NCBI GenBank assembly: GCA_950295325.1
Contig: OX485804.1
Location: 62,090,533-62,154,532 of the forward strand
Direction of reading: 5' to 3'
DNA from: Polytrichum commune
Taxonomy: Eukaryota; Streptophyta; Polytrichopsida; Polytrichales; Polytrichaceae
Length of the DNA stretch: 64,000 nucleotides
Below are positions 5,873 to 36,975 of the stretch, one piece after another. Under the pieces are notes generated by a model. The model searched no databases. It was not told the DNA's origin and saw nothing but the letters and a program-made list of their open reading frames with translations. The first letter of the stretch is position 1, and the number at the start of each line of letters is the position of its first letter. Both the position numbers and the translations under genes were made by a program.

Positions 5873-6375
5873 TGGCCACACACACAAGACTGAGAGCCCG
5901 TGACCAGTACACTTCAAGCACTCTCATTGGTGGAAAAGGCGGAGCCGGTCCAAGTTCGCTACTTCACACTACGCTTGAGGGACCAACGGAGTATATAAGT
6001 GAATGCAAGATGGATATTAAGTCTACATGGATTCCTACATGGCATCAAAGGGATCATATTTCATGGTCACTTGGACTATTTTCAAAAAACCATCTCTTGG
6101 AGGTAGGCCAAACACAAAACTGGAGGTCATGGCACTCCGAATGCTCACAACCCTTGATTTATTCTAGTTTATGATGTGTGAAGACCCAGATGAATAGAAT
6201 TTCATTGAAATAGCATTTGGTTGATGGCCTGGTCACATATGACTTCACACTACACTTGAGGGTCCGTGACCACACTATATGATGTTGGAGGTGTGTTGGG
6301 ACGGCCTTTGAACACTCTCTTTTGGGCTCTCACAATTTCATGGTCACGGCTCTTGGCTCGTGTGTGAAGTGGCCC
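5873..6375. mobile_element. PIF/Harbinger-type MITE, family B copy 1
   Basis: The body is collinear with 27362-27836. The right end reads TGTGTGAAGTGGCCC followed by TTA (6376-6378). The left end is degraded (GGCCACACACACAAGACTG). Inside are ACACTTCAAGCACTCTCATT and a TTGGTGGAAAAGGCGGAGCC block found in all copies. The element is non-coding. From 6380 to 7150 there is only AT-rich sequence in which I see no feature. Confidence 0.7.
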
Positions 6376-7149
6376 TTATGCCCATATAGTCACATATATG
6401 GCCGTTGCTTGACATGTGATAAAGCATGTGTGGTTTTGGTAGATCACCTTGTAAGGTTGTTCTACAATGGGACTTGTGGAATGTAGCTCAACTCACCCCA
6501 ACAAACATGTTATCCAACTTTCAATTTACGGATGGACACATCTTAGCATTAGTGATTTGATTGAAGTCCAGTTCCCAGGGAGTGCACTATTCATTAAAAC
6601 CAAGCATCACGTGCGTGCATGCCCCTTATTAAAATACCCTTGTATACATTTTATTTTTGCTAAAATCAAGCAATATACTTACAAATCTCATTGCTTCAAA
6701 ATACATTTCCATACATACACAAGGGTCCAAAAACAAATACAGAAATTGTATATAACATGTGTACAAATGTTTGGAAATGCAAAAATATGGCCCTATTATA
6801 TGTATAATATCAAATCATAGATTTTTAGTTATAAAGTCGTTACTTAGTGGATGAAAAAACACATGATTCTTGGTCCAGGTCTGACTTGAACGCGTAAACG
6901 CGTAAATGCGTACTTTACATATATTTTTCTATAGCCTCATGTATATCTACTTCTTGCTTAATAGCAATATGTCTCTTGTACGTACATTTTGTACATGCTT
7001 GTTTTAAATAATACCCCTTTTGTGCACCCACGTGTATAAATACAGTACTTGAACAGTGCACTCCCTGGGGTCCAGTTTGACTTGAAGGAAGTAATTGATC
7101 AGCTCCATAGTTCAAGTGAAGGTGGGTGTAATGGGCAACATTATTTACC

Positions 7150-9650: not shown

Positions 9651-10860
9651 TGAAGATTGACAGGCTTCTTGATTTCTGACTGACTTGGAATCCGGAGGAA
9701 TTGCACGAAAGCTCAAGCAAGCAGGATGATCATCATCGCCACAGATCTTCCTTTGGTCGGCGCTCCAAGAGCTCTGATCAAGACTCACAAGATGCTAATA
9801 ATCTGGAGTCTCTATTAGTACTTACCATCAAAGTACGTGACTTGATGATGACGAAAGTTGTGACCGATTCTTCTTGAACATGGACGAGAGACAGAGAATA
9901 TTGGGAAAAGTGCTTGAAGGTTGACAGGCTTTCTTCTCTTTGCTTTCTGACTGACACAAACGAACGCTCGAATTGCACGAAAGCTCAAATGAAACATCCA
10001 CTTTCGGCGTGCGAGGTGCATGCAGACTCATCACGAATCTAATGCTGTAAGCAGAGATTGGGAAACTGCAAGACTCACAAGAAGCTGAATCAATCTGGAG
10101 TCTGAATGTATAATAACCATCTTCGTGAGTGGCCGAAAGTTACGGCTTCCATGGCCGAAAGTTGTTGTTGAACATGGATATTGAGAGTTTTGGGGAAAAG
10201 TGTGTTCACTAAGATTGACAGGTTTTTTGGAATCTGACTCGCCTATGCCCCCTTCCCAGTTGACTTTAGCTAATAAGACTAAAAGTTGGTTCTAACAACC
10301 CGGCCTTCACACCATCGACATTTATCTAGTGCCCAACCTAGTTGGCAAATGATGTGGCATGGCTTACAAGTGGAGGTTTTAAGCCTCAAGCACCGACCCT
10401 CCCATCGGTACCTAAACATGAGGCAGGAATATAGGACCTTTAAAAGTGTCGCCTCCCGCCCTTGTGATTGGTTGCTTTTAGTCTTGGCTATGAGGGCACG
10501 AGGAGCTCCATTAACAAAAATTGATGGTAAGACAGATGAGTAGTGAGGCATTTGGGGATGGGACAAAAACTATCCAACATTTCATTGCTTGGTAGATAAA
10601 ACAATGAACATGTGTGAAAGCTACTTAATTAAAACCTACTTGAAAATTTCCAGAGCAAGTTCTTATAGGTGCATTGGGATAGCCGGATGCCTCCGCTATA
10701 ACCGAGGGAGCTTTACCCGGTTTTTAGGAAATACTTTTAGTCTTAGCTAAAGTCAGATGGGAAGGGGGCATTAGCAAACCCTTGCTTTGCATGAAAGCTC
10801 AAAACAAAGATCTATCTTCGGCGTGGTGCGAGGCACGGCTAGCTTGAGACTCAAGAAAAC
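9651..10860. repeat. Tandem repeat array, three units of about 265-295 bp, split by a MITE
   Basis: Units start near 9655, 9919 and 10213 with GATTGACAGG or GTTGACAGG. Each contains TTTCTGACTGAC-type and GCACGAAAGCTC phrases, then GACTCACAAGA, TCTGGAGTCT and GGGAAAAGTG. The third unit is interrupted after about 30 bp by the family A element at 10246-10770 and resumes at 10774 (CATGAAAGCTC, CTTCGGCGTGG). No ORF continues through the array. GC-rich blocks resembling each other flank it (9400-9630 and 10870-11090). Confidence 0.65.
10246..10770. mobile_element. Non-autonomous TIR transposon (MITE), family A copy 2
   Basis: It has the same termini as the element at 17-537 (TGCCCCCTTCCCA...TGGGAAGGGGGCA) and a highly similar body. 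Flanks are CTA (10243-10245) and TTA (10771-10773). It lies inside the third unit of a tandem array, so the empty site can be inferred from the neighbouring units; that supports a short, roughly 3 bp target duplication. Confidence 0.8.
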
Positions 10861-16654: not shown

Positions 16655-18117
16655 TCAACTACAACATCTTTGAGATTTCTTGGTTCCAACGACATCATCT
16701 TTATCAGTCCCGGTCAGGTTGATTTTTGTGCCAGGTAGAAGAGGAGAGTTCCCTTGGTTCTCATCAGCAATAAGGGCTTTCTTGCTAACAGTCTTATATA
16801 TCTCAGAGAGCACAGTGAAGAAGGCAGTCTCAACATTTGTGGACTCCATCGCTGACGTCTCAAGGAAAGACAATCCTTCTTTCTCCGCATACTCTCTTGC
16901 TGTATCTGTGTCAACTTGTCGTAGATTGCCCAGATCGGACTTGTTACCAATCAGCATGATCACAATATTTGAATCTGCATGTGCTCTCAGTTCTTCAAGC
17001 CACCTTTGTACATGCTCAAACGATTGTTGCTTAGTAATGTCATAAACTAACATGGCACCTACAGCACCTCTGTAGTATGCACTTGTAACAGCCCTGTACC
17101 TGCAAAATAGGAAGAAAAACTGGTCACACACAAAAATACATTCATACTGCTCACAAGTCACAGATGAAGAAGGTACTGGCTCAGAGGTACATGATATGCC
17201 CAACACAGTCAAGACACATAAATATTGGACAGGCTACAGCCTCTCTAAGTTGCGCTCTTTGCATTTACAAGTAGGCCACGTCAACGCATGGTGAGAGAAC
17301 TTGGATGAACCAGCTTGCTCTATCAGATAAAGAACTATGTCATAGAAGTTGTTGCAGGTGGAAGGAAAAGCTGTAGGAAGGTAAAGTAGTCTGTACTCAA
17401 GTACTTTCAATATCACATAAAGTTTGTCCAATAAACTTAATCAATCTCAAGAAGTTTCTTCTGTTCAGAATCCTATACAGAATCCCCTGGCTTTGCATGC
17501 AAATCATGAGTAGCAAAGAAAGCTCATGCTTTAAATAACATATTGTGACGAATTAAACAATTCCTTTTGGCATGCCAAGAGGTGCTAAAATGAGTCTGAC
17601 CCTCAATGAACTGATATAGAATGTTCTTTGTTAAACCTCTACACCAACTCCAAACATTCACCAAAAAACTTATTGAAAGTGTTGTACGCAAAACAACCAA
17701 CTCCCAACCAAAACTCATGTTAAATTGAAAGATAAATCTAGTATGTTGAGATAATTTTATAATAAGGATTCAGTTCATTTAGTCCAAGGTGCACAATAGA
17801 GTAATTCACTACATGGTTCTACAACTCTGACTTGCAAGGAACTATCTCATTACCTTAGGAGTCAGAGGAAAAGACTGAGAACAAACGCACCTTTCTTGTC
17901 CAGCTGTATCCCAGATCTGAGCTTTGATGGTCTTGTGGTCTACTACAATTGTTCGCGTTTGAAACTCAACTCCAATTGTGGCTTTCGACTCAAGACTGAA
18001 CTCATTTCGGGAGAACCTTGCAAGCAGCTGTGACTTTCCAACAGCCGAATCCCCAATGAGAACAACCTTGAACACATAGTCTATCTTGTGATCGTACTCA
18101 TTGTATCCATTCGACAT
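16655..18117 (-). CDS. RABA4: RabA4-like (Rab11-class) small GTPase
   Basis: A small GTPase of the plant RabA (Rab11) clade; family members direct trans-Golgi/recycling vesicles to the plasma membrane and, for RabA4, tip-growing sites. There are two coding exons, 18117-17891 and 17099-16655, joined by a GT-AG intron (…CAAGAAAG|GTGCG, TTTTGCAG|GTACAGG), giving 223 residues, the usual length. Visible motifs are the P-loop GDSAVGKS, switch [10 protein letters not shown], switch [22 protein letters not shown], guanine-binding NKSDL and ETSA, and the C-terminal prenylation motif CCS. The N-terminus [20 protein letters not shown] fits RabA4 better than RabA1/A2. The start ATG is the only one upstream of the P-loop in frame. 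The leader carries a further intron (18150-19795). I am confident of RabA; subclass A4 is inferred from memory of family signatures. Confidence 0.95.
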
Positions 18118-18149: not shown

Positions 18150-19795
18150 CTGAAATGCTGGCACATAGAATGACCAATCTTCTAATCTCAGAACAAGTTG
18201 GTGATCAATCCAAGTCCGCTTCCACTGCCACGCCTCCCAGAGGTTCTATATACATATCATGCATAAGACATCCTTTCAGTCTATTGAAACGACGATATGA
18301 CTCTCAAATTCATATTTCAAAAAGTAGCAATAACCTGATGCTAATTGCATTACTCCAACTTAAACTTCCACTAACACAAGAGGTTAAGAATGTCATCCTA
18401 CCGTTATATTTGTCAATCATCACAATTCATTGAACATTGAAACAATTAAGACTTGTGAGCACTCCTTGAAATAAGCTTCAAGCAATGCATACACATATAA
18501 AACGGCAATCACCTTTCACATTATATCCCTACTAAATTCCTACATCCTGAATTGCCTATTGCATCAGTAAACCTCGGTCATTAAATTTATCAAACTTGAG
18601 TGCCTTATGAAGCATCAAAGGCAGTCAGATTGCCATTTCCCTCGGCGCATCAACTTGTAAGGTGCTAAACAGCAGAATTAAAATCCTCTGTTCTGCAAGC
18701 CAGAAGGTGCTTTTATTGCAAATCATTCACTGTTGTTATTCGTACCATTAAAACGTGTGCAATTAAGATAAAGTCAATGCACACACATACAAGCAGAATA
18801 CGACGATCGCCATTCACATCATATCCTTATTAAGAAGCTACATCCTGAGTTCCTATTACAATCCCGACGGCCATGGAAGACCACGGTCATCAGATTGATC
18901 ACACTTGAGCCTTAGAAAGAATCAAAGGCACTCAGGTTGCATCTTCCCTTGGCCCGCAACTTGTAAGGTGCTAAACGGCAGGATTGGAATCGCCTGTTCT
19001 GCGAACCCGACGGTGCTTTCATCGCAAGTCATTGAATATTATCATTCGTACCGCCAAAACGTGTGCAGTTAAGAGACTTGAGCCTTACAAAGAATCAAAG
19101 GCAGTCAGATTGCACCATCTCTAAGCGCATCAACTTGTAAAGTGCAAAACAACCGGATTGAATCCTCTATTCTGCGAGCCCGACGCAACTTTCATTGCAA
19201 TCCATTCGCTAGTATTATTTCATACCGTCGAAACGTGTGCGCTTAAGAGAAAGTCGAGCCTCATGCAGCATCGAAGGTAGTCAGATTGCATCTTCTTTCG
19301 ACGCATCACCTTCTAAGGTGCTCAACGGCCGGCTTGAAATCCTCTGTTCTGCGAGCACGGCGGTGGTTTCATTGCAAATCATTCGCTATTCTTATTATTC
19401 ATACCGTCGAAACGTGTGCAGTTAAGAAGAGAAAATCGAAGTAAAGAAGCGAACAGCTCATTCTCGCAGTCCGAACCATAGATCTTCTCTGATAACACGA
19501 CCACAACCCCCGAAGATCGGAGAAATGTAGCTTCATTCCAATAACCAAAACCTAAATGCCAGGCAAGAACCTCTGATGAAGAACAGAAGAGGAGATGCTT
19601 CGAGCATTTCAAGATTCAACAGAGAGCACTCCGCCAAATACTACAGTGTTCCACGATACCGAATAAAGAAGCGAAATATGGCTAGTTACTTGCAGATCGG
19701 TGCCCGCGGGGAGCAACAACCTCGCGCATCTAACCTACACGAGCTTTGACCGGCCGCCGCTACCTCAATTCTTGAGCAACAGAAGCAAATAATAC
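18150..19795 (-). other. Intron in the 5' leader of the RabA4-like gene
   Basis: The inferred donor is at 19795 (TTTCAAG|GTATTATTTG) and the acceptor at 18150 (GCATTTCAG|TTCATAAGG), 32 nt upstream of the start codon. Leader introns are common in plant Rab genes and often raise expression. More than half of this one is a tandem array (18478-19430). No transcript evidence is available here. Confidence 0.65.
18478..19430. repeat. Tandem array in the Rab leader intron (4 units)
   Basis: Units marked by ATCAAAGGCAGTCAGATTGC start near 18612, 18920, 19092 and 19268. The first two units are about 300 bp and include TACATCCTGA and CACGGTCAT-type phrases. The last two are shorter, about 175 bp, and lack that part. 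Each unit repeats CATCAACTTGTAAGGTGC, CCTCTGTTCTGC and AAACGTGTGCA. The array stays within the intron. Confidence 0.75.
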
Positions 19796-20031
19796 CTTGA
19801 AATGTCGGGGAGGAAGCGATCTTCGCGGCGGCAGGGCAGGGGAGGGTTGGAGAAAGCTGGAGATGTAGCGATGGCGCCGCGACGAAGGTGCAGTTTGCTC
19901 GAGTGACTCTCCCCTACGCACCGCAAGTGCAGTGAGACTCCAGTCTTCGCAAAACTTTCCCTTGCCCCCCTTCTCTCTCTTTTCTTCTCGCCCTCGTTCC
20001 CCATGGAGCTCCCGCGTTCCCATCTTTAAAG
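19796..20031 (-). promoter_or_regulatory. Leader exon and core promoter of the RabA4-like gene
   Basis: This is a GC- and pyrimidine-rich block, in contrast to the AT-rich surroundings. On the minus strand it ends at the splice donor after CTTCCTCCCCGACATTTCAA. A TATA-like CTTTAAAG lies at 20024-20031, upstream in the gene's direction. An upstream ATG at 20004 would open a short reading frame ending shortly after the splice junction, if transcription begins early enough to include it. The last 31 nt are almost identical to the leader exon of the DUF538 gene at 36725. Confidence 0.5.
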
Positions 20032-20035
20032 CCCC

Positions 20036-22390
20036 CATTCACACCTACTTGGGCACTGCTTGTATTGAACATTTATAAGTCCGGAGATGTATCAAACCTC
20101 CGATTTAGTGTGGCCCACACTATTCATCATTGACCCACACTACACCATTTATGATATTTTAGTGTCACATACACTATTTGCGAAGGGCCTAAACTAGATG
20201 TCTAGAGGTCTCAAAGTGTCACATCCACTAATTGTCAATATGATATTATTTGTCAACATAAGTTTTTTTTTTCAAATGAATACTAATTTGCATTATGACG
20301 GTAATTAGCGTAGCACATTGGGATACTTGAGATGATAGTTTTACATTCTAGTATGCAAGGGGAAGATATTTATTGAGCGTACTAATGCCAAGTGTTGTTT
20401 ATGTACACTTTAGTCAACTTGTAGACCATTATATAACATAAGCATAAGTTATACCTCATAACATTATTGAACATACTCATGCCAAGATATTAGTAAGTGC
20501 ACTTGAACACCAAGTGTCATGAGGTGGCATCATTGATGAAGTTGTTGATCATTAAAGTAATCAAGCATACACCTCAAGATAGGGTAAGTGACACTAAATA
20601 CCATAAATGCCCCCCCCCCCCCATATCTCGTTCCTTCCCACCCTCGTTCCTTGTTCACAAGAAAATTTAAAGTCAAGAATGAACTAACTTTTGCCTTTGT
20701 TGATACAATACTCAATACAATACATTCATATTATTTTGATTGAAAATTGACAATTTTATATGGAATTTATTTATTTATTTATTTAGCACAAGATGATAGA
20801 GCTTTTATAAAGAATCAAAGTTCTTTTTAGGTCAACATGCCCTACATCGAACCAATGCGTTTCCGCACATGGGGAATTGCACTAACATTGTTATGCTTAC
20901 ATCTTGTTGGCGGCTGAGGAATTTTCTTTACCTCGAAGCGTACATCAATTGTTAATACAATATTCAACATTTGGATTGTAATTTTAAAACATATATTTAT
21001 CAGAATTTCTTGAAGTTTGATGAATCTAAATTGATTATAAAAAAATCATAAAAATCACTAAATATTACTACCATATTGACGTGATCTTAAAATCATTAGC
21101 AACAACTTTTCTTTTAGGTACAAAAGAAATCGAGCTCTAGAAAGCTTACTTTTTAGATGATCTAATGAAATCCACAATACACTCCATGAAGTTAAGGGTC
21201 AAAAGAGATTGGACTATGCCTTCAAATTTTGTTAATTACTCCACACTCAGTAATGAACAAAATAATTCCATGAGGATCTATGTATTTAATTAAGGACTCA
21301 ACAAACATGCACTTCTGATAAGCGCAACTAAATTAGAGGAGGTTCAATTTATGTTGATGCTTCATCATGGAGTTGCTAATGCACCACAAATCTTGTTGCA
21401 TAAACATAAGTTAGAGAACATGAGTAACCAACCAAATAACAAATACAATTTCAAATGATGCTAAATTACTTAGAAAATTTTGATTTACTTGTTCTCTACA
21501 ATGGCAAACTTAAGACTCCGATATGGCATGACGTATATCCACATTGCTATATATTGGTGAAAGAAGAGTGTATACATCAGAACCCAATTGTTCAATTTTC
21601 ATTCATTTTGCATGTATTATATGTGAATTTATTCTTTTATTTTTATATTTAAAATCCTTTATTATTTTTGTCATACTAATTTATTTCTACCTCAAACCTA
21701 AAGTGGGGGGTTTCCCCTTATGCTAAATTATATGTTTTGCAATTTAAATAGGCTATGGTAGATCCAAAGTGTCTATAATTCTTCTTGCCAATGAATAAAA
21801 AACACCCTATAGTTGTTCTCACGTGGTTTCTACATTTCAGCCGGTGACCCCCCCCCCCCGAGAGATGGTGCACTAAAGATATGAATTAGTGTGGCCCACA
21901 CTATTAGTCGTGACCCACAATCGTTGTTTTTAAATCAATGGGTCGCAACTAGAGAGGATTTCATATGACTATCGGTCCTAGTACATGACAAGTCGTAAAG
22001 ACCACTCTATTAACATGGCACACCAATCTAAATGCCACATTAATTAACACAATCAAGAAGTTATAAGGCACAATATATCTTCCCTTATTTGGCCTCACCC
22101 TTGTTTTTTATGAAGTACGTATATTCCCATCACCAAAGCTACGATTCGCACCGAGTTGGGCAATGCTTGTATTGTATAAATATTAGTATGGAGGCACACT
22201 ATTCATGATCAACCCTCTTTAGTGTCTTGTGATCATTGGGTGACAACTAGAGAGGGTGTCATGTGAAATTTGGTGCTACGTGACAAGTCATGAAGACCAC
22301 TCTAATCAACATAGCATACAAATTTTAAGGCTACACTAAAACATATGCTTAATGTAGTTGTAACACACAAAATATATACATAGCTGTGAG
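20036..22390. repeat. Intergenic repeat cluster upstream of the Rab gene
   Basis: There is no gene. About 21885-22090 and 22180-22385 are direct repeats about 290 bp apart (AACTAGAGAGG, GACAAGTC-TGAAGACCACTCT, AACAT-GCA). The stretch 20036-20130 shares TTGGGCA-TGCTTGTATTG and the following TTTATAAG/ATTAGTATGGAGG-type sequence with 22155-22210. 21210-21425 copies 15705-15950. C runs of 12-13 bases occur at 20610 and 21848. Confidence 0.5.
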
Positions 22391-24601
22391 GCCAAACCCC
22401 CCACCCTTAAGCGTCCGTAGTCCGAGTAGTGGGTTTGGGCTCACATTCCTCCGCGGTATTGGATTTGGACTTGGATGAGTCCATAGTACAAGGTTCACCC
22501 TTCAAGTGGTCTTGGATTTAACTGGAATTTCACTTTTAACAACTCAATGTACAATTTCAATACGTATGTGGAGAATGCACAAGTTAACTATGTTATTTTA
22601 ACCTCCTTATGCTCGGGTGCTATTTTGTCTTTGTTTGCTTCTAACGTCCATCCGGCCGCTTTAGCTACACAAGCCCTTAAGGATATCCCTCTCCTAAATT
22701 GAGTCCGTGCCGTTGACTCTATACTACCACTTGAACTATCACTTGTGTATTCCGTATCGCTACTATAAGAGGTCTCACTTGGTGTCTCCATACCGTACAT
22801 AAGCCTTTAAGTATTAAGAAATACTTATGTGACTTATGTCAATCTCTCCCTCGCACCTTTGGTCTTTGCTTTCTTTGTCTTGCCATCGCGAGAGTGCTCC
22901 ACATTCTCCATTAATTTGTGCACGTGGTTTATTTTTAAAGAGAGGATGCAAGTGTTAAAAAAAACACTATTCTCTATAGTCAATCTCAAATACATTTACT
23001 TGTGAAAGCCACCATAACACTAACTAGCATAATGTAACTAACTACTTGTCTATGAGCTAATTAGGTAGGCTATCTACTAAGCTCCTTCATGAACCCATCT
23101 CTTTACTTTCTAATTACATAAACCTAGCTCCTTCATAAACCCAGCTTCTTAGCTTCTAACTAAACAAACCCAGCTCCTTCATAAACCCAGCTCCTTCATA
23201 AACCCAGCTCCTTAGCTTCTAACTAAACAAACTCAGGTCCTTCATAAACCCAGCTCTTTACTTTCTAACTAGACAAACCCAGCTCCTTCATAAACCCAGC
23301 TCTTTACTTTCTAACTAAACAAACCCAGCTCCTTCATAAACCCAGCTCCTTCATGAACCCACAACTTTGTAGTTGTAATCCCCAACTACCTCACTAATTA
23401 TTCAAGCCCTTAACTAATCTTCCTACCTAATTTCCCTAATTCTACTAACAACCCCTTTCTAATCACACAATTCTTCTCTAATCCTAAAATCCTAAAATCC
23501 TAGAGAGGAGAGGGGGAGAGAGAATTTCCTAACTTCACTAAGACTAACTAATCCACACAAGTATATTTTTGCACTCATCACAACATCAAGTGCTCAACTC
23601 TTAAACATGGAACTTGCAACCACGTGTATTCAAAACATGAACTTTAAGTACCACAAATTGGAATCATGAATTAACTTTAAAATCCTTCACGTCAACACTA
23701 ATTCTACCAAGAGGTCAAGCCCTCTTCAAGGCTAACAAGCCTTGGCTCTCAAACTAAAAACTAAGCACACACATGTGCTCCAATATGGCTTCCCACACCC
23801 ACACTTATAACTCGTGGGGTGCCTTGGAGCACAAAGGAAAGAGAGGATGAGTGAGGGAAGAATGAGGGATTATATAGTAAGCTTGAGGGGGTGAGCACCC
23901 TCAAGGCTCACGATAAGCCCTTGAGATTTCCTCCTACTTAGTAGGCGCCAATCCTATCTTCTAAGCCTTCCTCCCTCAAATGATCAACAAGGATCCTAAT
24001 TCGAACATTTAACTAGCCTTGGCTTTCTACCTACCACACTTTACCAAACTTGGGATGCTTCAACCCAAACTTAGCCTCCTTCGCTTTCCGCCGCCATAAC
24101 TTTCTCCCCTTACTTTCCCAAATCGTCGCTCACCACTTAATTCAAACCACGATGCTTAACTCGTGATTTGATTGGTGCTTTGAGAATTTGCTTATCCTCC
24201 ACCTTGCATTCTTCCTTGGGCCTTCCCCATTAAGTGGCCATGATGAGGTGGTCCACTTGTGCGCTCCATGTGATCCTCCATTCATCCCAATTCGAATGCA
24301 CTTGCCTCTTGAGTCACTTTGGTTGTCTCCATCCATTTGTACTAGCCTACTCACTAACTACTCAATCCAAGTTCTCCTTACCTATCTTCATTCACTCAAA
24401 TCCTTCCGAAGGTAAAAACACAATAACAACTCACATCCTAGCCTCTTACAACATGGTACTTCTAAGACTAACATTTCACTCTTTTTATATTTTTGTGAAG
24501 TAACATGCTACTTCAAAGTGCATCAACTAACGTTTCAAGGGTCTAAGACTAAATGTGGGCACCCTTTTGGGCTCACAATAGCCAAACAACTTGCCACGTG
24601 T

Positions 24602-24633
<32 letters not shown>

Positions 24634-24900
24634 CACTTTACCGTTTAGGATAAACTTACCTCGTGTGTAAACTTGGAGGCGGTGTTGTATGTATGTATGT
24701 AAGTATATATATGTGTGTGTGTGTGTGTGCCACTTGAGTTGGAAAGTTGAATGTTCTAGGTCTCTATGAGGATTAATTGGATAGGCATAACATTACTCAG
24801 GGGCTGTCTTTTGTTCCTTTTTTATTTAAGAACAAGCCCCAGGTTCATATTGAGTCTGAAAAACTTAGAGATCCCTGCATCTGGCACTTATATCTAACCA
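22391..24900. other. Gene-free intergenic region, possibly an old retroelement edge
   Basis: I see no convincing gene. On the minus strand a 70-residue serine-rich ORF (22800-22588, starting MYGMETPSETSYSSDTEYTS) is unassigned. On the minus strand near 23870 TATATAATCCC precedes a CT-rich stretch, as in some LTR promoters, but I could not find paired LTRs or a primer-binding site. Microsatellites lie at 24608-24632 (GA) and 24713-24729 (GT). Confidence 0.3.
23070..23365. repeat. Minisatellite, AACCCAGCTCCTTCATAA-type units
   Basis: The phrase ACCCAGCTCCTTCATAA recurs about eight times between 23090 and 23350, alternating with CTTTCTAACTAAACAA or TTAGCTTCTAACTAAACAA. It is a compound repeat with a higher-order period of roughly 50-60 bp. 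Non-coding. Confidence 0.75.
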
Positions 24901-24918
24901 ACCCCACGGAGCAAACTA

Positions 24919-25295
24919 CACTAAATATGATATTTAGTGTATTTGTTGTCTTGCTCAATACTAATTGTAAACCACGGTATAGTGTCACCAACACTAGTAT
25001 ATGTTAACCCAACATTATTTGTCATTCCTTGTGATTTTTTTTTTTGGGGGGGGGGTTATAGATTTACAATGTTGCAATTACTGTCACTTACCAGGTGATA
25101 TTTAATCCAAATTTCAATCATCCAAGATAATATTTCATTGCAAGTTTCTGACAAGAGAAGGTAGGATTTTGGCCAATGGATGAACTCATCCATCATCCAT
25201 GACAATATTTGTTCAACTTATTCATAAGAAATGTCATCCAAAAAGTTACCATAGTGACATTGAATACCATATGACACTAAATATCATATTTAGTG
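24919..25295. mobile_element. MITE family C, best-preserved copy
   Basis: The ends are CACTAAATATGATATTTAG (left) and ACACTAAATATCATATTTAG (right); each end is itself near-palindromic. The body is collinear with 3281-3659. A G run (25046-25055) preceded by T's replaces a TTTTTTAGGGATATAG stretch in the other copy, showing local homopolymer growth after insertion. Non-coding. Confidence 0.65.
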
Positions 25296-25299
25296 TAGC

Positions 25300-27355
25300 C
25301 CCCCTGAGCAATGTTATGGAAACTAATAATCTTCATGAAACCATATAATAATGAGAAAAAAATCTTAATGTCATGATCAGTTCAAGAACTTATGGAAAAT
25401 ATATCTTCTAATTGTGTAAGCCCATTATTAATAAAGTATATATTTTATTATTAACGTGGTTTTGAAAAATTCTAGCCAAACATGCACTATTTAGAAAATA
25501 AATTGTAAGATGGTCTACTTATCTTGGAACACAAATTTATGATACATATTCAAGAGTCCAACATGGACCACTTTCAAACAAATAAAAAATCATTTGATTT
25601 TTTTAGTGTGCCATAACATTATTTAGCCATGTAGATCAGATCCCTAATTTTGGAGTATGTCAATTATATTATGCATGCCCCCAAAAAAAGTGGGAATATT
25701 CTTTTAGTATTCATACATTCAAAGATGAACTTAGAAATTTGGGTGAGTTATGTTCCCAACATTATGCATAGGAGTCATTGTTTATCCCAATAATATTTGC
25801 AAGAAACAATGTTCATCTTGCTATTATTACCTAAAATTATTATTCATCATAGCAATAGCACTGAAATATCAGATGCTAAATATAGATTGGAACACAACCA
25901 TGTAGCTAAATAATGTTATGGCAACCTAGAATGAGTAAATATTCCTACATTGTGTCCGCTTTAGACTATGTCCAATCAATCAGTTGCACATCTATGATAA
26001 TACAATGGTAAGGGAAGCATGCTTTCCATAGTCTTTAAAGACTTTGTAAGCAAATACAAACATGTCTCACCTCGTTAAAAGATATTTGGCATCCACATGA
26101 TTTCTATTTCCTAAAAACAACAACACCATGGAATGGCACCCAATGAAAGAGCTTGACCGTTCCACATTTCCTTAACATCCTCGTCATCAACTATTGAGGT
26201 TCCTCTTTAGGGTGCAACCACACCGCCTAGTTAGGTGCACTAACTAACTCAAGGGTTAAGAAAGATCAGTTGGCCAAATGCCACCCCTGACATGTTTGGA
26301 GGCCACACCACCTGATCAACAAACTCGACAAATTCAACTAGCTAGGAGCCCGAGCTAGGGCAGCCATTGAAATTTAGTGTTCCTTGCTTGATGGACCTCC
26401 AACCTTCCACACGTCTACACCATTCTCAGCCCTTCATGTCTTAGTTCTTCAAGGTATGAAAGGACTCTCAGTTCTTCATGCGCTTTGAAGCACCTCTGCA
26501 CCAACTCTGCAATGGGGAAGATCATAAAGTCAGAAGTTGAATTGAATAAGTTTTGTTGTATGCTGGCATGCAAACACAATGCCAAGGAATTCGCTTTGTC
26601 TCCGCGATTGCAATCACCGCTTGTTCAATATGGGCATCCTTTATTGATTTTCTCTTTCACTTGAAACTTGTGAGTGTAAAAATTGGCAATTCATTAGCCT
26701 TGTCCGCATTGATGTTGTTGGTAACCAGTAAATGCAGTGAAACCATGTCAAAGTTAAAGCCACAAGTAGATCTTTCAAGGCTCAAGAAAAATGCAGCCTC
26801 ACATGTGTTAAGTTCAACAGTATCCTCAACTCGGCCTTAATTGTATTGCACCGGTTCCAAAAACAAAAATACAATTGTACTGAGGTTAACATGCACATAT
26901 GATCCCAAAAATGTGCCCATGTGCCCAAAAATGCCTTGATTCTTCTCAAATTTTATTAAAATGAAGAGATATTTCTTATTTCGGTTGGTTGTGCCCCTGC
27001 GGCCTTGGCGTTTTAGAGAAACATCAAACATGACCGATCATCAAACATGACCGATCATCAAACATGTTAGTGATAGTGAACTAAATTTCCCTTGACATCA
27101 AGAGTGATAAAATGTTCCGAGGTCATTGGAATGCACCCTATGGCAATAAAAGGTTAACTTCTATAGTGGTACAATTGAATGCTCCGATTCCAACTTTTGG
27201 GGTTTAGGTACACGATACGAAATAAAAAAAATACAGAAATATGCATTGCAGTGGGAAATTTCCTTCTATGTAGGGTTGTCATTTCTGGCTTGAGCTACCA
27301 GTACTAATATTGTATGTTGATTGACATCACTTATTTTAGCAAGGCACACCGGCTG
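25300..27355. other. AT-rich intergenic sequence, no gene recognised
   Basis: There are only short chance ORFs (for example 26553-26840). ACATGACCGATCATCAA repeats about 2.5 times at 27027-27065 as an 18 bp tandem. I see no conserved domain, RNA gene or complete element. Confidence 0.5.
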
Positions 27356-27361
27356 ATCTAA

Positions 27362-27836
27362 GGGCCACTTTACACATGAGACTGAGAGCCCGTGACCATT
27401 ACACTTCAAGCACTCTCATTGGTGGAAAAGGCGGAGCCGGTCCAAGTTTGGTACTTCACACAACGCAAGATGGACGTAAAGTCTACATGGATTCTTACAT
27501 GGCATCAAATGGATCATGTTTCATGGTCACTTGGACTGTTTTCAAAAACCACCTCTTGGAGGTAGGCCTATCATGAGACTAGAAGACCATGGCATTCCGA
27601 ACGCTCACAACTGTTGGTTTATTTTATTTTATTATGTGTGAGGTATCCACATGAATAGAATCTCATTAAACATCATTTAGTTGAGGGCCCGGTCACATAT
27701 GGCTTCACAATACACTTGAGGGTCCGTGACCACACTACATGATTTTGGAGGTGTGTTTGGGATGGCCTCTGGACACTTTCTTTTGGGCTCTCACAATTTC
27801 ATGGTCACGGCTCTTGGCTCGTGTGTGAAGTGGCCC
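27362..27836. mobile_element. PIF/Harbinger-type MITE, family B copy 2 (intact ends)
   Basis: The left end is GGGCCACTTTACACATGAG; the right end in reverse complement is GGGCCACTTCACACACGAG. TAA lies on both sides (27359-27361 and 27837-27839), the TWA-type duplication expected of Tourist/PIF-Harbinger elements. Length is 475 bp and it is non-coding. Related copies lie at 5873-6375 and, inverted and diverged, at 31285-31728. Confidence 0.85.
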
Positions 27837-27956
27837 TAAGTTATCTATCATACGATCTGGCAACCTGTGTATAACTTACTGACAAGAAGTCAGAGGAGAA
27901 TTTGTTAATTGAGCCCTGTCAATGTATTTTTGGAATATCCATAGAAGAAGCATACG

Positions 27957-28181
27957 TATACACTCTAAACTCCGTAGTATCACACGTGGCAACCAAAGTG
28001 CATGTGATATTATGGAGTTTTGTAGTGTTAACATGGATGCGTGATACTAGTGAATTAGTGTAGCATGTGACACTATGGAATAACACAAAGTGCAACATAT
28101 TAAATGGTGTGGTGTGGTCCACTCCACTTGGCCTTCCCGGGCGATGTGGCATATGCATGCATCAACATTCAACAAGTGGCA

Positions 28182-28212
<31 letters not shown>

Positions 28213-28413
28213 AAGAAGACACTCCACATATTGACACATGGCGCAATGCAAGGGTGTGGGTTGACTTCTTTGGTGGTTTGCATTAATGACAAAATTTGTG
28301 ATATAAGGGAGAGAAAGGTGACAATAAGGAGTGACATTTGAACTACAAACATTTGTTCCCTAGGGTTTTGGGATATTAGAGAGTGTGTGACATTATGGAG
28401 TTTAGGGTGTATA
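27957..28413. mobile_element. MITE family E with TA-flanked ends, containing an AAG microsatellite
   Basis: The left end CACTCTAAACTCCGTAGTAT is mirrored by the right end (reverse complement CACCCTAAACTCCATAATGT). Both are flanked by TA. An (AAG)n tract of about 38 bp lies at 28182-28219. A partial inverted relative occurs at 32720-32870. Non-coding. Confidence 0.65.
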
Positions 28414-28781
28414 GGTATCAACTTCTTGGTGCTTGACAACAGGTTCCATCATGTCAAATCTAACTTATGTATGCCCAATGTTCACGAATATAGAGTAGAG
28501 AGACCCATTTCCGTTAACTCAAAGCACTTTCGCATAAGTGTAGTACATGTGTGATACTGGAGTGGTCTTTCACATGTGTGGAAATTGATATCACAACATT
28601 TAACCAAAAAAAATCACAATTCATTATCAAGTTTTGAAATTATCGCAAATTTGTAAAGGCAATATTCTCTCCCAACATATATTCACAACATAGGTTGACC
28701 TATTTCCAATCATTGGGAGACATAAACTTGTGTACAATCAATGCCCTTTTCAAGGAACCCAAATCCACGCCCTTTAAACTT

Positions 28782-29240
28782 AAGGTAGAAAATCCCGAAA
28801 ACCATGAGTGACCTCTACTAGTGCACTAGACTAGGGGTAGAATGATTATTGTGTGAACCCAAAATGGCTAAACGTAACAGTGGTGGCCCGAAAAGGTTGC
28901 AATCATAGGTGGGATGCAATGATTGGCTGGATAGGTGTTGTTTCACACCACATGTGATTATTTTTGGGTGGCATTGAGTTAATCCTTTAGAGTGCATTCT
29001 TATGTAGAGTAGGCTATTTTGATGCTCAAATTAGGGAGATTCTACTATACAAGTAGGGGGTTTGACTTACTTGTGTCTTTGGGAAAATGTAACTACTTAT
29101 TTACTTGAAATAAAGTTATGAAACAATTTGCACTCCTCATCATTTCCTCTATTCCATCTTTGAAAATATTGCACAAATTTCAAGCCACTCTCTCTGTCCG
29201 AATTAACTTATTTTAATTCTTTTATGTATATCTACCTTCC
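28782..29240. mobile_element. Diverged MITE family D copy
   Basis: It starts TTAAGGTAGAAAATCCCGAA, shares CTCTACT-GTGCACTAGA with the element at 5069-5600, and ends with a diverged ATATCTACCTT. It is recognisable but eroded. Non-coding. Confidence 0.5.
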
Positions 29241-30849
29241 TTTTCCCATCATGCTAGATGTGATGGTGACATGTGTGGAATGTCACAACTTTAGGGGACA
29301 CTATGTATTCAGAAAGGGGGGGAAGGGGGGGGGGGTATTGAAAATGGGTTTGTCTACTCTACATGTCAAAAACATCTTCTTCGTGCCCACCTCTTCGTAT
29401 TTACCATAGTAGTGACCTTAGTTACCATAGTAGTACCTTGAGTACTAAAGTGTCGAAAAAATTGAATTCATGCCAAATCTTGGGGCAAGAGGAAATTATT
29501 GCATATGAGCAGACCTCTCATTCATTGGATGACAACATCCTAAAATGGCATGAGAGAGGACATTGCATATTTCAAATACTTTGACACGAGAATCAACTTC
29601 GAAGACCCCAACTTAGCCTAGTGAGCAACTTTTGAAATGAAATGAAATGAAATTGATTTTAGAGTTCATTAAGTCAAAAATCTCATATGAGAGAGCTAGG
29701 CATGTCTTGATCATATCTATGCTTACATTCAAGCTTAGTCATGTGTGAATACATCCTCTTGTATAGAGGCCAAACCATTCCTTCCACATATCTATGTATC
29801 CCTCAAACTCTGGGAGGGTGGGTGGGACCCTCCCTTATGGAAAAACACTTTCCACCATAACCAATACTTTTCACAACTCGGTGGACAACTCAATTAATCA
29901 TCAAAAACTTATTTACTATATTGATAGGGTATTGGTCTAGGTAAACTTATGTATTATGCCATACCTCATACCCATCTCTCACTTAGTCAAAAACAAAGAT
30001 GTATGTAATGTCAACACAAGCTAACTTCAAAGGTCTTTTTACTCGAATAAAAAATGCTTTGTATTCCAAACTTTCTTGTAGAATATCTAAGCAAAATACA
30101 CATTACTTGTACTGAAAGATATGCAAAGTTTAAGAATACTGCCAAGTTTGTGAAGGGTTTGCCTCACCTATGCCCATACCACCAACCAAATCCACAAAGA
30201 GGGTTAGTAGCGTACATGAGGTGAATAACAACAAAGCCCAATTGTTATCTATGTCACACAATCAATCATGGTACAACCAAATACTTTGTATCAAAGAATA
30301 CACATCCCTTTCATGAGTATTTTACATGTTCCTTAGCCATTCGGACCTTGTGCAACCAAAGCTTGTGGTAGGTTACACGCACCACCCGCTTTTAGTAGTT
30401 TGCACCACTTACACTAATCCTAAATTTTTTACTTAGGGTAAGCAACCACTTGTGGCTAAACCTTCGAAAGAAGGTGCTCACGTTTCTATGCGCTTAATAT
30501 AGGATTAGGTAAAGAACATGCACCTTAGATGTGTAGTGTCACGTCTACGGTGGATATGTGTTAGGTAAACTTTGACGAACCCTAAGGTAATTTTCTTGGG
30601 GATGATATCTTGATATCTAGTAAATCATTAAGGCTAAAGTAAAAACATAGTAGAGAGAGAGAAAGAGAGAGAGAGCTCACTTCGCCTTGAACATAGTTGC
30701 AAGCTAATAAGTAAACTCAAAGTGGGTTCATAGAGCATGGCTATGGGACAAATGCTACTCCCTCATATCATAGGCGTTCCCTTATGGGATTGAAGTACAT
30801 CGAGATGATGTCCAAAAGGTTGATTTCTTAGAGTAACATAGTGCAATGG

Positions 30850-31280
30850 CCTCCGTGAGACAATGACTGATATCAACTTGGTAGTTCAATTAGAAAAAAG
30901 ACTTCAGATTTCCTAGCACTACATATTGGAATGAGGAAAGAAACCTATCAACAATGGAGTTGTAGAGGGAGCACTCTAGCAAAAAGTGTGCCTCATTTTC
31001 AACTGCATTGTGGGAGCATAATTGGCATAATTTGGTTTTTCTAGGGATAGGGATAGTCATCCACCACCCAATTACAATAGAAAATATTTGGTTTGAAATG
31101 AATAAACAACAAACATATAGAGGGTAGGTTTTCTTAACATGGATGGATGAGAAGTACGCTCGCATGCAACAATTTCCTCTCGCCAAATCTTGGAGCCATG
31201 TCAATAACATTAACCCTGGTAGCAACAACTAAGTGTAATGGCATGCAATCTTCATCATTTCTACATGACATTAAATAAGG
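30850..31280 (-). mobile_element. LINE fragment with RT-associated zinc knuckle
   Basis: The minus-strand ORF 31228-30890 contains WWMTIPIPRKTKLCQLC followed by HNAVENEAHFLLECSLY: a C-x2-C...H...C arrangement with the E-H-LLEC-Y pattern of zf-RVT domains. It is truncated and has no RT core. A separate LINE-type tail (GAAATGAAATGAAATGAAAT) lies at 29635, so two insertions or a split one may be present. From 29240 to 30850 I see no gene. Confidence 0.6.
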
Positions 31281-31284
31281 GCAC

Positions 31285-31728
31285 TTGATGCTATGGCCAA
31301 GGGCCATGACCATGGTATTGTGAGGGCCCTTGAAACTCATACGAAGGCTACACCATGGAAATTTGAGATTGGATTTGTGTGGTCATGTGCACTTCGAGTG
31401 AATTAGGTTATGTACCAAATGGTATTTCAAAGCTATCTTATTAATGTGGCCCATATACCCAATACGTTACCAAGGGTTGTGAGATATTGAAGCAATGTCA
31501 TGGTCTCCTTGTCTGTGTTAGACCCACCTCTTAGAGGTTGCTTGACACAAATATCTCAAGATCATGAAACTTTATCCATTGCATGTCACATAGATTTTAT
31601 ATCCCATTCACACTTCCTTGGTCATGTAGGCCCTCAAGCTCTAGTGTAAGTGAAGTGGGACAATCTCACATTTTCCACCAATGAGATTTTAGATTTCAAT
31701 GGACAAGGTCCTCAAGCTCTAGTGTAAA
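31285..31728. mobile_element. PIF/Harbinger-type MITE family B, inverted diverged copy
   Basis: Read in reverse, it keeps the family landmarks GACCATGG-ATTGTGAGGGCCC, TTTTCCACCAATGAGA and a terminal AGTGTAAAGT. The ends are eroded and no target duplication is evident. It directly abuts the LINE fragment. Confidence 0.5.
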
Positions 31729-32719
31729 GTTCTCCTAATTTCAGTGCATTTTAAAACTAGTCATGAAAATACCGGAAGTTTTTAAATGAGCCTTACATAG
31801 TGTTTTCATCCAAATAAAAACAAATATATCATCACTTTAGTGATGAACTTGCCTCACTCGTAAGGTGAAATGTGTCAAGTTGGGTTAAGGTACTAAGGCC
31901 TTAAAGGACACTTTCTACAAACTTTTACTATTTTAAGTAGGTAAAATAGCTTGGATAGATTCCAAAAATTCCAAGTCTTTAGAAATTTTAAAAAAAATCA
32001 TAAATTCATGTGCAACCTACATAATTTTACTCAATTGATGAAGATGAATTATGTTCATGGGCCCAACAATAAAGTCAAGAACAAAGAGTCTGGATGCCGA
32101 AATTCCAATGCTTCACACTGAATCCAAAGTCAAAGCAACTGAATAATCATAAGTTGAGTAATTTTATTCTCCATTAGGGGAGGGGGGTGTCTATTTACGT
32201 TGGATTACTAGGTGATAATCACCACAAAATCAACCTTATTGCCGGTGAGGATCTTCTATTAAATGAAAGTGTTATCCCCCTTTTGTGGATTATTTCTTTG
32301 TGGATCATTGATGATGGTGCCCCACAATTACTTATAAGATAATAGGAGTGTAAGTTGCACTTGTTCAATTCATCTCCACCTTCTTGGTGTGTATCGACTA
32401 CTAACCTCCAAGGTCCAAGGGGGGGGGGGGGGTCACTCCCATATTTTAAGAAAACTATGTGAGAACAAATATAGGGTCCACTTTAAAGTTGCGGTCTACA
32501 AATTATAAAACTTGTATTTGTAACAAAGACCAAGTTATATATTGAACTTCATGGTATAAATTGATTAGGACGTTTACAAATTGATTATGTTAGAGATATT
32601 TAAAAACTAACATATCATAGGGTTCAATAAGGTGGGGAATTAAAATATTAGATTAGGGACCCACACTATGGATGAGCACCATTAAATAAGCACCGTTGGG
32701 AGATTATATGTGTCCCATG

Positions 32720-32870
32720 TATGAAATTATCAATTTCAGCATTGTAATGTTGCGCTTTGTGTTATTCCATAATGTCATATGATATACTAATTTTCTATTA
32801 TCATGCATCCTTGTTAAACACTACAAACCTCCTTAATATCACGTGCACTTTGGTTGCCATAGGCATGGCT
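32720..32870. repeat. Partial inverted copy of MITE family E
   Basis: GCGCTTTGTGTTATTCCATAAT and CACGTGCACTTTGGTTGCCA are the reverse complements of phrases inside 27985-28105. Only the internal part is preserved. From 31730 to 32700 I see no gene; a 14-base G run lies at 32419-32432. Confidence 0.5.
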
Positions 32871-32899
32871 TTAGGGAGGTCAGAGTTTACCAAATGATA

Positions 32900-33575
32900 C
32901 CCACCACCCTATGAGGCTAACGATAGGTTTTCAAACAACGGCTTGCTCACCTACCCTCTTGGTTGGTCAATCAAGCAACCTCACTTTCACGACACCTTGC
33001 TGAACAAGGATTTGGCACATGGCATAAATTGACAACCATGTGGAAGGCATCATGGGGTCTATCTCAATGAGAAACCCATAGCAAACCAACGCCGTCAAAA
33101 ATCACATTTGTTGATCTCAAAGAGGCTTTTCTTGCTAGAGAACTCTTTCCATCTCTTGGGAAAGAAACTATATTACCTCCATCTCAAGGATTTTCTTTTA
33201 AATATGAATGTGAATTATACTTGAAGCAACCATTGACAACACCCCAACTCTACATCATTGTTGCTTATTGCGCCTCGAATCATAGACTTGCCATTGAAAC
33301 TAGACGGTGGTCAACTATCTCTACCTTAATCTCTAGAAATAATATATTATGCCACTTTTGCTCTTATAATAACGAGGCACACTTTGTGTTCAAGTGTCCT
33401 CTATAGCATTCCATTAGTGATAGTGTGGTGTTAAGGAGTCTCAAGTCTTTCTTTCAATCGGATCATCAGGTCGATATTAGCCTCTACCTCACGGAGGCTT
33501 ACACACTCTGCCACTCTAGGGAATTAGCTGGTCTAACACCATCTTGATGTACTTCAAAGTCAATTTCATTTCCTG
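32900..33575 (+). mobile_element. LINE 3' fragment, plus strand
   Basis: In shifting frames it encodes SLSRHLAEQGFGTWHKLTT-like sequence, then NHRLAIETRRWS and CHFCSYNNEAHFVFKCPLY, parallel to the minus-strand copy at 7150-8220. The R-L-IE-RW then C-x2-C...H...C order is the zf-RVT signature. It ends with CAATTTCATTTCC, the family tail. Stops and frameshifts show it is dead. Confidence 0.65.
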
Positions 33576-34253
33576 AAGTTTGGGGATTGACTCTGCAATA
33601 AATCATGTGACTTTTCTCCAAAAGTAACCTTGGTATTACAGCATTCATCTGAGGCAAGTGAAACAATGAAATATTTCACCAATAATGTGAGAAGTTAGAA
33701 TGTTCTAATCTAGGAAATGTAAAAGCACTCTGTGATTGGATTTGACTACTGTTTATATGCAGTACAATCATCAACAAGGCCAATGTACTCAGGCACTTGC
33801 AATCACCTAACTAAATGGTGGCTATGAAAACCAAGCTGTAATTCAAGGACACCAAAGACACAGCAAATGGAGATAATACAACGCACATAAAATTTGACAT
33901 AATAGGAAATCGACATTGCACTTCACATCGAATATTCTTAACACATGGTGGTACAATAAACCTTTGTGACCATGGAGAGCAAGGTCATCCATGTTCAAGA
34001 ATGGTAAAGATTACAGGAAACCAATGTAACCTGCTACAGGGAATAATACAAATTACCAGAGACCATCAACTAATCATCGATTGCCTGCACTACAATATAT
34101 ACAACACCCTCCCCTTCCAAGTGCTATATAGTTGGTTTGTCAGGTTATTCTGGTACTTTTCCAGCCCTAAAGCCATACTCAACAATGAAGTTGCATATTG
34201 ACCAATTGAGAGTCCACTTCGAGACTCCCCAATTCAAATGACTCAAAGATGAC

Positions 34254-34763
34254 CTAAAAATACGCGGTAGGATCCATGAAGGCCGACTCCACAGAACTGA
34301 CCTCACAGATGGGAGGATCATCAAAGTTTTCATAAGGAAACTTTGTGCTCAAAATGCCAATCTCAAAATAAAGGCTGTTGTCATTACCAAGGGAGATCCC
34401 TGTGATGTTCCACCATATGTAATACGCCTTCACAGTGATGCCTTTGAGTCCCTCGAGCCGTCCATATGACAGCATCCCAGTGATCACTTTATCGTAAATG
34501 AGAGGGTACTTGTCTTGGATAAGCACACGGCACTTGCTTTCCAAGAATAGAGTGAATTTGCCGTTGGCTTCTAATGTATAGCCCGTGACGATGTGAGGTA
34601 ACAATCCTTCTGGGAACCCATAAGTTTCCAGTTTCTCATACGCATCTGTGCCCTCTGAAGGGGATGCATACACTTGGCTTGTACTACAATAGCACAACAC
34701 AAGGAGCACAAGCGCCCATTGAATCCTAGATCTATTTCCAAGAAGTCTCTTAATGCACTCCAT
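34254..34763 (-). CDS. DUF538 family secreted protein
   Basis: An intronless 169-residue protein of the plant DUF538 family. Residues 16-33 (WALVLLVLCYCSTSQVYA) form a signal peptide core with a likely cleavage after VYA, so the protein should enter the secretory pathway. The mature part has the family order: YEKLETYGFPEGLLPHIVTG, YTLEANGKFTLFL, a central YDKVITGMLSYGRLEGLKGI and VKAYYIWWNI, then a C-terminal beta-rich end. The biochemical role of DUF538 is unsettled; stress-linked and cell-wall or plastid-associated roles have been proposed for some members. The ATG at 34763 is chosen because it is the only one giving a full signal peptide. A second CDS exon is not needed. A leader intron is inferred upstream (34828-36724). 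Confidence 0.92.
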   Translation of the reverse strand: MECIKRLLGNRSRIQWALVLLVLCYCSTSQVYASPSEGTDAYEKLETYGFPEGLLPHIVTGYTLEANGKFTLFLESKCRVLIQDKYPLIYDKVITGMLSYGRLEGLKGITVKAYYIWWNITGISLGNDNSLYFEIGILSTKFPYENFDDPPICEVSSVESAFMDPTAYF

Positions 34764-34827
34764 TGCTTGCTATCAATGGATTTTGCTTTCTTCAAACTTT
34801 GCCCCCTGGTACTGCTGGATTGAGCTG

Positions 34828-36724
34828 CTGTAGAATCAAAATGTAAGACAATTTGGACTGCAGGAGGGTCTCTCTCCCTTATTCATCTTCCTAAAAAAAC
34901 AACACAATAAAATTCATCTAGTCAAGAACTGGAGATGAATCATCATGTGAAATATAGACAAAGCTTGCAAAGAAAACATGCCGATGAGTTTTCATGCTTG
35001 CCCAGCCAAAATGTCAATCCGATTCGTTCAAACCGGCGAGTGAAATTAAAAATAAATAAAATAAACTAACCCTCTAGTGAGTTGACAAGCCTTCTCAACA
35101 AGCCCAAGAGAACTTCAAAATTGACTTTGAAAGGGTAATCACCTATTTGCACCATCTAATCATAACTTCCTTATGATCATCAGGAGACAATGTTCACAAG
35201 AAAGTTAGCGTCACATGATTTAACTAGACAACCAGAAGGCTATGGAACACATTCTCTGACCAGAGAAACAACCAAAAATATGGCCACCAAAGGCTCCGCA
35301 CAAACCCCTTCAATGTAAACCTGACTGAACCTAGCATGGAAGACATCAGATGTGAGTATGCGCAAATCTCTCTTGAAAATCGTACTGGACTATTTGATCC
35401 ACGTCAAATAAAAGGTGGGCTTTTTTTGGAGTTCCTTGAAGTGGTGGTGATGGCGTTGGAAAAGGTTGACAAGCCTGTTCTCCTACTCTTACGGACCAAT
35501 TGTGTTAGAATTTTGTTCCAGAAACTGGGACTAGAATTGGACTCAACACCACCTCAAGGTCGTTCAAGTTGCACATTCTCTAACAAGAGCTATGATCTAA
35601 AAGAAGGACAAAATCTTAATATCCACCGTGTTGATTAGATTCTGTAGCGGAACTAGAGTACTGCCCGACAATTTAAATGCATCATATTTCACAAGATCAT
35701 CAAAACTGCATCAAACTGCAGACAGCCATATAAAGCTCACATCTTGCAGGATACTATCAGAATCCAAAATGAAAATAGACACGTTCCAATCAAACTCAAA
35801 AAGTTCGATAGAAAGTACAAGTTAGTCAACCTAGGTGTAAAGAGAGAAATTGTTCACATTGCATCTGTCATAAGTTGTTCCTTTTCTTTTAACAACTAAA
35901 GCATCACACCGAAAGGCAAATCTCACTTTCAGATCGGAATATACAGTTAAGCAGATGCAAATTGCAGAACTCTACCACCATGAGAGGTCGTGTGTGCGGA
36001 CCTAACCTTTCAGATTCATTCACAAGGCATGGACCACTAAACATGTACTAGAGTAGCAATCTAACATAAAAAAATCTTCCAATTCCGAGTAGTCTCCCAT
36101 GTAGAACACCCTATTTGTGTCAAAGAGGATATGCTTAAGTATAAAGCACATGCAGAAATTTTGCAGCATTTCCAAATACGACCGAAAACAGCAGCCATAC
36201 TAGCTGTTCACCTACTAGCACATAAAATTTCCCATAGGATTAAACTTCAAAAGCATAAAGCACCCAAATCCGGGGAGCTAGTATCTCGCCGAGAGCATCA
36301 ACTTCTAAGACATGCTTTATTAGCGACTAAAAATACCATGCCCAAGACAATCTCGTCCATGTATAGGCTCTATAGGCTCTTCTACGAAGCGAAAGCTGGA
36401 GTCACGAAACTTGATCTTATAATCAGACTCAGAGAGAGATCACTTCCTCCATTTAAGAGGACATGAAAAATCAATCAGACACCAAAACCTAAACGCTACA
36501 AACATCGTTCGAGGGAACCAAAGCATCCGCAGAACCACAAACTCAACCAAATTTTACCCGTCATTCTTCGAGTGACACCTTCCAAGCAGCTGGAAACATC
36601 TCCAGGAAACCCTAGCATTCGAGGATACCTCCAACGCACCCCCTCCTGCACACCACCCCTACCTAACTCAAACTTTGACCTGCCACCAGGGCCGCAAGCC
36701 TTAACCGAAAAACGAGAATGATAC
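34828..36724 (-). other. Inferred leader intron of the DUF538 gene
   Basis: The donor is TTTCAAG|GTATCATTC at 36724 and the likely acceptor GATTCTACAG|CAGCTCAA at 34828. Several short ORFs inside (for example 35336-35638 and 36131-36466, plus strand) show no recognisable domain and are treated as chance. The assignment rests on splice consensus and on the strong match of the donor region to the Rab leader exon. Confidence 0.5.
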
Positions 36725-36975
36725 CTTGAAATGTCGGGGAGGAAGTGATCTTTGCGATTGCGAGGAGGTCGAAGGGATCGCGGGAGCGGAGCACCGGTGC
36801 CGGATCAACGACGGAAGCAACTTCGGCTTCCTCTCCTTCCTTCGTTGTGACACAAAGAGTATCAGCAACCGCAACCGCAACCGCAGCAGCTACGGCTCTC
36901 CAGCCTTCTCCGACTTCGTGCCTTCCTTACGAGTTCCCATACGTTCCCCTCACGTTCTCAATGGGTTCGCGAATC
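36725..36975 (-). promoter_or_regulatory. Leader exon and promoter-proximal region of the DUF538 gene
   Basis: This GC-rich block resembles a plant 5' leader. It includes a (CAACCG)n-like tract at 36869-36890 and a CCATACGTTCCCCTCACGTT phrase at 36937. A similar TACGTTCCTCTCACGTTCC occurs near 61012 in the promoter of the ANP32-like gene. The donor-proximal 31 nt match the Rab leader exon at 19796-19826 with two differences. Confidence 0.45.

Follow-up and report, generated by a model that had tools for sequence, protein, structure and literature searches.

How do two seemingly unrelated genes come to end their leader exons in almost the same nucleotides (nt)? The question is raised by a 64,000-nt stretch of the Polytrichum commune genome (assembly GCA_950295325.1, contig OX485804.1, C2:62090533-62154532 in our labels), referred to here as the window, with all unprefixed positions counted from its first letter. 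Its minus strand carries a gene for a RabA-like GTPase and a gene for a DUF538 protein, each apparently preceded by a leader exon and a leader intron. The original prediction held that the last 31 nt of the two leader exons are nearly identical, and offered three readings of the match: a shared regulatory or splicing element, a small dispersed element that supplies splice donors, or the remnant of a common captured leader. We find that the match is real, local and not a product of chance, and that it probably represents an old duplicate of a leader segment.

A gapless match across two presumed donors

The near-identity itself was confirmed as predicted: the minus-strand segments 19826-19796 and 36755-36725 agree at 29 of 31 positions, each is then followed by GTAT, and the next-best place for this segment in the window carries 11 mismatches in 31. 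The accompanying claim that the exons and introns are otherwise dissimilar had to be given up, as similarity runs in register past the donor into both introns. BLASTN aligned 19744-19827 with 36673-36756 over 84 gap-free columns (76%), and ungapped extension of the pair yields 98 columns with 72 matches, reaching 66 nt into both introns, with the two copies agreeing again at ATT after GTAT. Among the 44 intronic nt that follow GTATNATT, 27 are identical, a count reached by none of 200,000 letter shuffles (maximum 25), and when this tail was slid over the whole window it matched the partner best, one unrelated place reaching 25/44. The tail substitutions comprise 12 transitions and 12 transversions, with no indel required. 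A local duplicate should show similarity over a contiguous stretch that extends beyond any functional motif, and the gapless 98 columns together with the 27/44 tail have this form.

Identity is distributed unevenly along the alignment. A change-point test places a break after column 36, that is, directly after GTAT, with 34 of 36 columns identical before it and 38 of 62 after it (permutation p 0.003). At both exonic differences the RabA copy reads CpG where the DUF538 copy has CpA, and at the 5' edge identity falls abruptly upstream of 19827/36756.

The genome examined comprises 408 Mb, and our counts of places in it are lower bounds; strongly diverged copies can escape such searches. A genome search for the shared segment, proposed as a check alongside the original prediction, found the exact 23-mer core at these two places only, with one further match at 3 mismatches. 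Likewise, BLAST with 161 and 171 bp around the copies listed only these two places, with a mutual E of about 1e-8. The copies lie 16,929 bp apart on the same strand, and two places in 408 Mb, 16.9 kb from one another, are few and close together, as expected of a local duplication. A candidate at C1:29867460 (3 mismatches) was rejected; its GT stands one base off the donor context, and the number of such matches is as expected by our estimate.

The core was also sought upstream of relatives of the two genes. Five other Rab loci (L001, L002, L008, L009 and L010) and the DUF538 loci L003/L012 (a fragment), L005 and L011, the relatives listed within the E-value and candidate limits of the searches, were without it in an ungapped scan covering about 4.5-7 kb upstream, the best match showing 7-9 mismatches in 23. 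Because these relatives lack the core, the shared segment does not appear to characterise the Rab or the DUF538 family in this genome; a captured leader should be absent from the recipient's relatives, and within the same scan it is.

Origin and preservation of the shared segment

Taken together, these data make it probable that the match descends from an old local duplication of a leader and donor segment, which now presumably serves two non-homologous genes, with its exon-donor part preserved. A local event is favored because the two places in the genome lie 16.9 kb apart on one strand and align without a gap through the donor. In the mechanism we propose, a segment at least some 100 bp long, made up of a leader-exon end, its donor and the early intron, would have been copied locally long ago, the duplication being judged old because the intronic part is down to about 61% identity. 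The copies would have ended at the presumed leader donors of the RabA-type GTPase gene and, on the same strand at a distance of 17 kb, of the DUF538 gene. As the genes are otherwise unrelated, one of them may have adopted an existing leader end with its donor; our guess, prompted by its uninterrupted coding frame, is that the DUF538 gene was the recipient. The intronic part would then have drifted to its present identity, with the last 31 exonic nt plus the donor staying at about 94%, most likely held through use in both genes. Selection is our proposed cause, and the best reading of the contrast is that either selection or later conversion preserved the exon end and donor. Among the three earlier readings, the remnant of a common captured leader therefore fits best, given one local pair with gapless homology running across the donor into the intron.

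The contrast in identity would also be expected if the 36-nt exon end and donor formed a functional cis-element, whether a splicing enhancer acting with the donor or a regulatory site close to the start, which strong purifying selection has maintained in both genes regardless of how it arose. Such an element would account for 34/36 positions being retained beside 38/62 in a single gapless alignment, and the CpG-versus-CpA type of both exonic differences suits it as well. Exchange of CpG and CpA is a common change in methylated DNA. We nevertheless consider a cis-element of this kind rather unlikely, as no third gene with the full element is listed, which would be uncommon in a splicing or promoter motif of general use, and as the segment shows neither an unusual RNA fold (z -0.84 to 1.28), nor an Rfam match (E <= 1, scan of 16000-39000), nor a coding signature. 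We thus rejected RNA structure or a known RNA as the cause of the match. A coding or upstream open reading frame (ORF) cause was likewise set aside, as the mismatches of the pair are spread evenly over codon positions (8, 9 and 9) and a search in every frame found no in-frame upstream ATG in the DUF538 leader. Stops interrupt frame 0 of the RabA copy; frame 1 (..SSPTFQGII..) runs open through about 30 codons in both copies, and candidate upstream ATGs of the RabA leader lie at 20004, 20023 and 20038. The earlier suggestion of a shared regulatory or splicing element thus survives as a possible reason for the 36-nt near-identity, though no test shows function. A bolder version, which we regard as more doubtful still, would hold that the 36-nt element is under strong purifying selection and shared by descent, tying the GTPase and DUF538 genes to one leader control such that they may be co-regulated, with a weaker form possibly recurring in a pair of homeodomain-zipper genes.

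The main alternative for the identity contrast is gene conversion over the core, by which an older duplicate pair would have been homogenised over about 40 bp, leaving the core near-identical in the absence of selection. Conversion predicts the same contrast and the sharp edge at 19827/36756, and the copies lie near each other. However, the tract would have had to stop at the donor by coincidence, and flanking homology that is short and about 61% identical would presumably make a poor substrate, such that we hold this course of events to be improbable.

We give little credence to reading the segment as a small mobile element, or as a short motif shared by further genes, even though the neighborhood is rich in repeats. 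A dispersed repeat should have many copies at unrelated places, and none of our BLAST and pattern searches, which diverged copies could escape, found them. The suggestion of a small dispersed element that supplies donors accordingly fares badly, with BLAST listing the pair alone and further pattern matches occurring at or near chance frequency: the 5'-half pattern, at <=3 mismatches, has 16 genome matches including the pair, compared to 14 for the reversed-pattern control. The 3'-half pattern is a point in favor of a wider motif, with four genome matches, namely the pair and two CCCCGACATTTTCAGGTATT sites, and none for its reversed control. These two sites (2 and 3 mismatches to the pattern) lie in the first-exon regions of homeodomain-zipper paralogues at C3 39.351 Mb (L006) and C7 38.262 Mb (L007), whose later exons encode a homeodomain and leucine zipper according to Pfam, and both read donor-like (CCCCGACATTTTCAG|GTATT). 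Yet outside the core they do not resemble the pair, either in the 30 nt before or in the 60 nt after (p 0.33-0.89), and the sites fall inside open frames of 96 and 108 codons that continue past them, with putative translations ..TPTFSGIIRQP.. and ..APTFSGILRQP.. The two genes being paralogues, the sites amount to a single event, and by our estimate one match or so with <=3 mismatches is expected. These look-alikes are thus most likely due to chance, although a short motif is possible, and beyond this 20-nt resemblance in one gene pair no further full copy was found at donors of other genes. An additional resemblance had been proposed at the ANP32-like leader (60547), which we dropped as a third case: among 157 AAGGT sites within the window, scored with a 39-nt query and gaps allowed, it ranks only 13th with a score of 9, whereas the pair scores 39 and 33.

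Chance or base composition is effectively refuted for the segment as a whole. Both leaders are C- and pyrimidine-rich, and the unrelated place that comes near the partner's tail score gives composition some weight, but 29/31 identity with the next-best place so far behind, the genome-wide E and a fixed-register tail that beats every shuffle leave it almost none.

Several observations weigh against an old local duplication. Evidence for homology of the remaining leader is mixed, making it doubtful: over the next 100 nt upstream, global alignment gives p 0.004 against shuffles and, in comparison with 988 and 406 overlapping stretches of matched GC, about 0.01, and ungapped comparison of 60, 120 and 200 nt gives p 0.14, 0.012 and 0.010, but local alignment of the same lengths gives p 1.0, 0.79 and 0.53, and near-register blocks p 0.64. 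In the intron, +67 to +236 is without homology between the copies (p 0.47), and none was found beyond +252. At +237 stands one 15/16 block, which 2 of 600 control anchors equal, and the 200-nt intron stretch that holds it has a local alignment p of 0.003; short near-register matches are not enriched, at 3 compared to a control-region mean of 2.1. Given the doubtful homology of the remaining leader and the unmatched deeper intron, what was copied may have been small. There are also 50 self-similar pairs in the window at E <= 1e-3, among which the leader pair is listed 35th. GTATTA and GTATCA are middling donors by eye, with no G at +5, and are presumed to serve as donors in both genes. Finally, the direction and timing of copying proposed here are tentative, the comparison covering one genome.

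The two genes and their surroundings

The gene identities given in the original prediction stand at the level of family, with coding exons matching Pfam Ras and Pfam DUF538 and the RabA4 subtype being putative; coordinates are collected in Table 1. On the acceptor side, a putative CAG ending at 18150 is consistent with the RabA-like start codon, and in the DUF538 gene a candidate CAG at 34828 competes with a rival TTTTTTTAG ending at 34891. Both leader regions fall in local peaks of G+C (GC) content (57.5-59.5%, the 200-bp median being 39.5%), as would be expected close to where transcription starts. We also entertained alternative first exons of one gene, with 36725 spliced to 18150, and judged this arrangement unlikely, as it needs an 18.6-kb intron across another gene.

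Table 1. Positions in the window of the shared segment, the presumed donors, the coding regions and the intronic repeat units
Feature	Positions	Strand	Remarks
31-nt near-identical segment, end of presumed RabA-like leader exon	19796..19826	-	29/31 identical to 36725-36755
31-nt near-identical segment, end of presumed DUF538 leader exon	36725..36755	-	29/31 identical to RabA copy
Full gapless homologous segment, RabA copy (32 exonic + 66 intronic nt)	19730..19827	-	72/98 columns identical
Full gapless homologous segment, DUF538 copy	36659..36756	-	72/98 columns identical
Presumed donor GTATTA, RabA-like leader intron	19790..19795	-	read from sequence
Presumed donor GTATCA, DUF538 leader intron	36719..36724	-	read from sequence
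RabA-like GTPase, first coding exon	17891..18117	-	ATG at 18117, Pfam Ras; 3' end putative
RabA-like GTPase, last coding exon, ends QRCCS	16655..17099	-	Pfam Ras; 5' end putative
DUF538 coding sequence, single uninterrupted frame, 169 aa	34254..34763	-	PF04398, 2.6e-28
Four diverged units of about 173 nt inside RabA-like leader intron	18588..19425	-	outside shared segment

The four units within the RabA-like leader intron are about 74-79% alike, with one genome place listed for them and no Rfam match; their folding was computed unit by unit. Upstream of the RabA-like leader, a TATAAAT-like site is present at about 20077-20071, and the stretch 20017-20139 recurs as short diverged copies some 2 kb farther upstream, at 21883-22193. 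Two inverted copies of a RabA relative, identical at 99.4% along 3.1 kb, lie about 20 kb from each other (L001 5163-8297 and L002 1-3144; C1 about 4.13 and 4.15 Mb). In the DUF538 coding sequence, a 77-bp piece (34301-34377) has a 94.8% copy on C3 at about 36.934 Mb (L003 3132-3208), perhaps a captured gene fragment. The first-exon regions of the homeodomain-zipper paralogues are strongly similar to each other (48/60 nt before the site) and contain, besides the open frame running through them, overlapping short frames and a possible upstream ORF.

A dispersed repeat occurs at 27363-27837 and 5874-6376, the first copy lying between the two genes. It has at least 41 matches including itself, with 40 of 4232 first-look candidates scored, and such insertions can have widened the gap between the genes, such that the leader copies may once have been closer. 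Elsewhere in the window, 15-541 and 10244-10774 are direct copies (530 bp, 92%) with inverted ends, probably a transposable element.

Comparison with known systems

Should both sites be used, this locus would offer a foreign leader exon and donor whose source is still recognisable beside the recipient gene, and the contrast in identity at the donor would provide an estimate of how strongly a noncoding exon end is held. The general view of gene structure would not change, the strong conservation of exon end and donor being the notable feature. A text search of the literature with the 18-nt string gave no match in the text searched, and we do not suggest that cases of this kind are absent from the literature.

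Among the systems with which the pair can be compared, plant intron-mediated enhancement is described as involving short motifs in many first introns, with the hexamer AGATCG among those listed (PMC8157754). Like those motifs, the segment lies near a first donor and its RabA copy contains AGATCG; unlike them as described there, it consists of a single, mostly exonic 36-nt match between two genes, and the DUF538 copy has AGATCA. A further comparison is with chimeric genes formed by partial duplication, as exemplified by jingwei (PMC4972966), in which part of one gene's 5' end is duplicated and joined to another gene, although here noncoding leader and donor sequence only is common to the two genes, with no protein-coding exons. 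New gene copies have also been described to acquire 5' untranslated region (UTR) exons from their surroundings, both among human retrocopies (PMC2584115) and among green-algal retrogenes (PMC4972966). As in those accounts, a coding sequence here would have been given a noncoding leader exon, sometimes with an intron, of foreign origin; in contrast to them, the homologous segment is still visible next door, and the DUF538 gene need be neither a young gene nor a retrocopy. Read from its sequence, the Polytrichum pair would be ordinary in kind, a 5' UTR exon taken from the surroundings with its source still in view.

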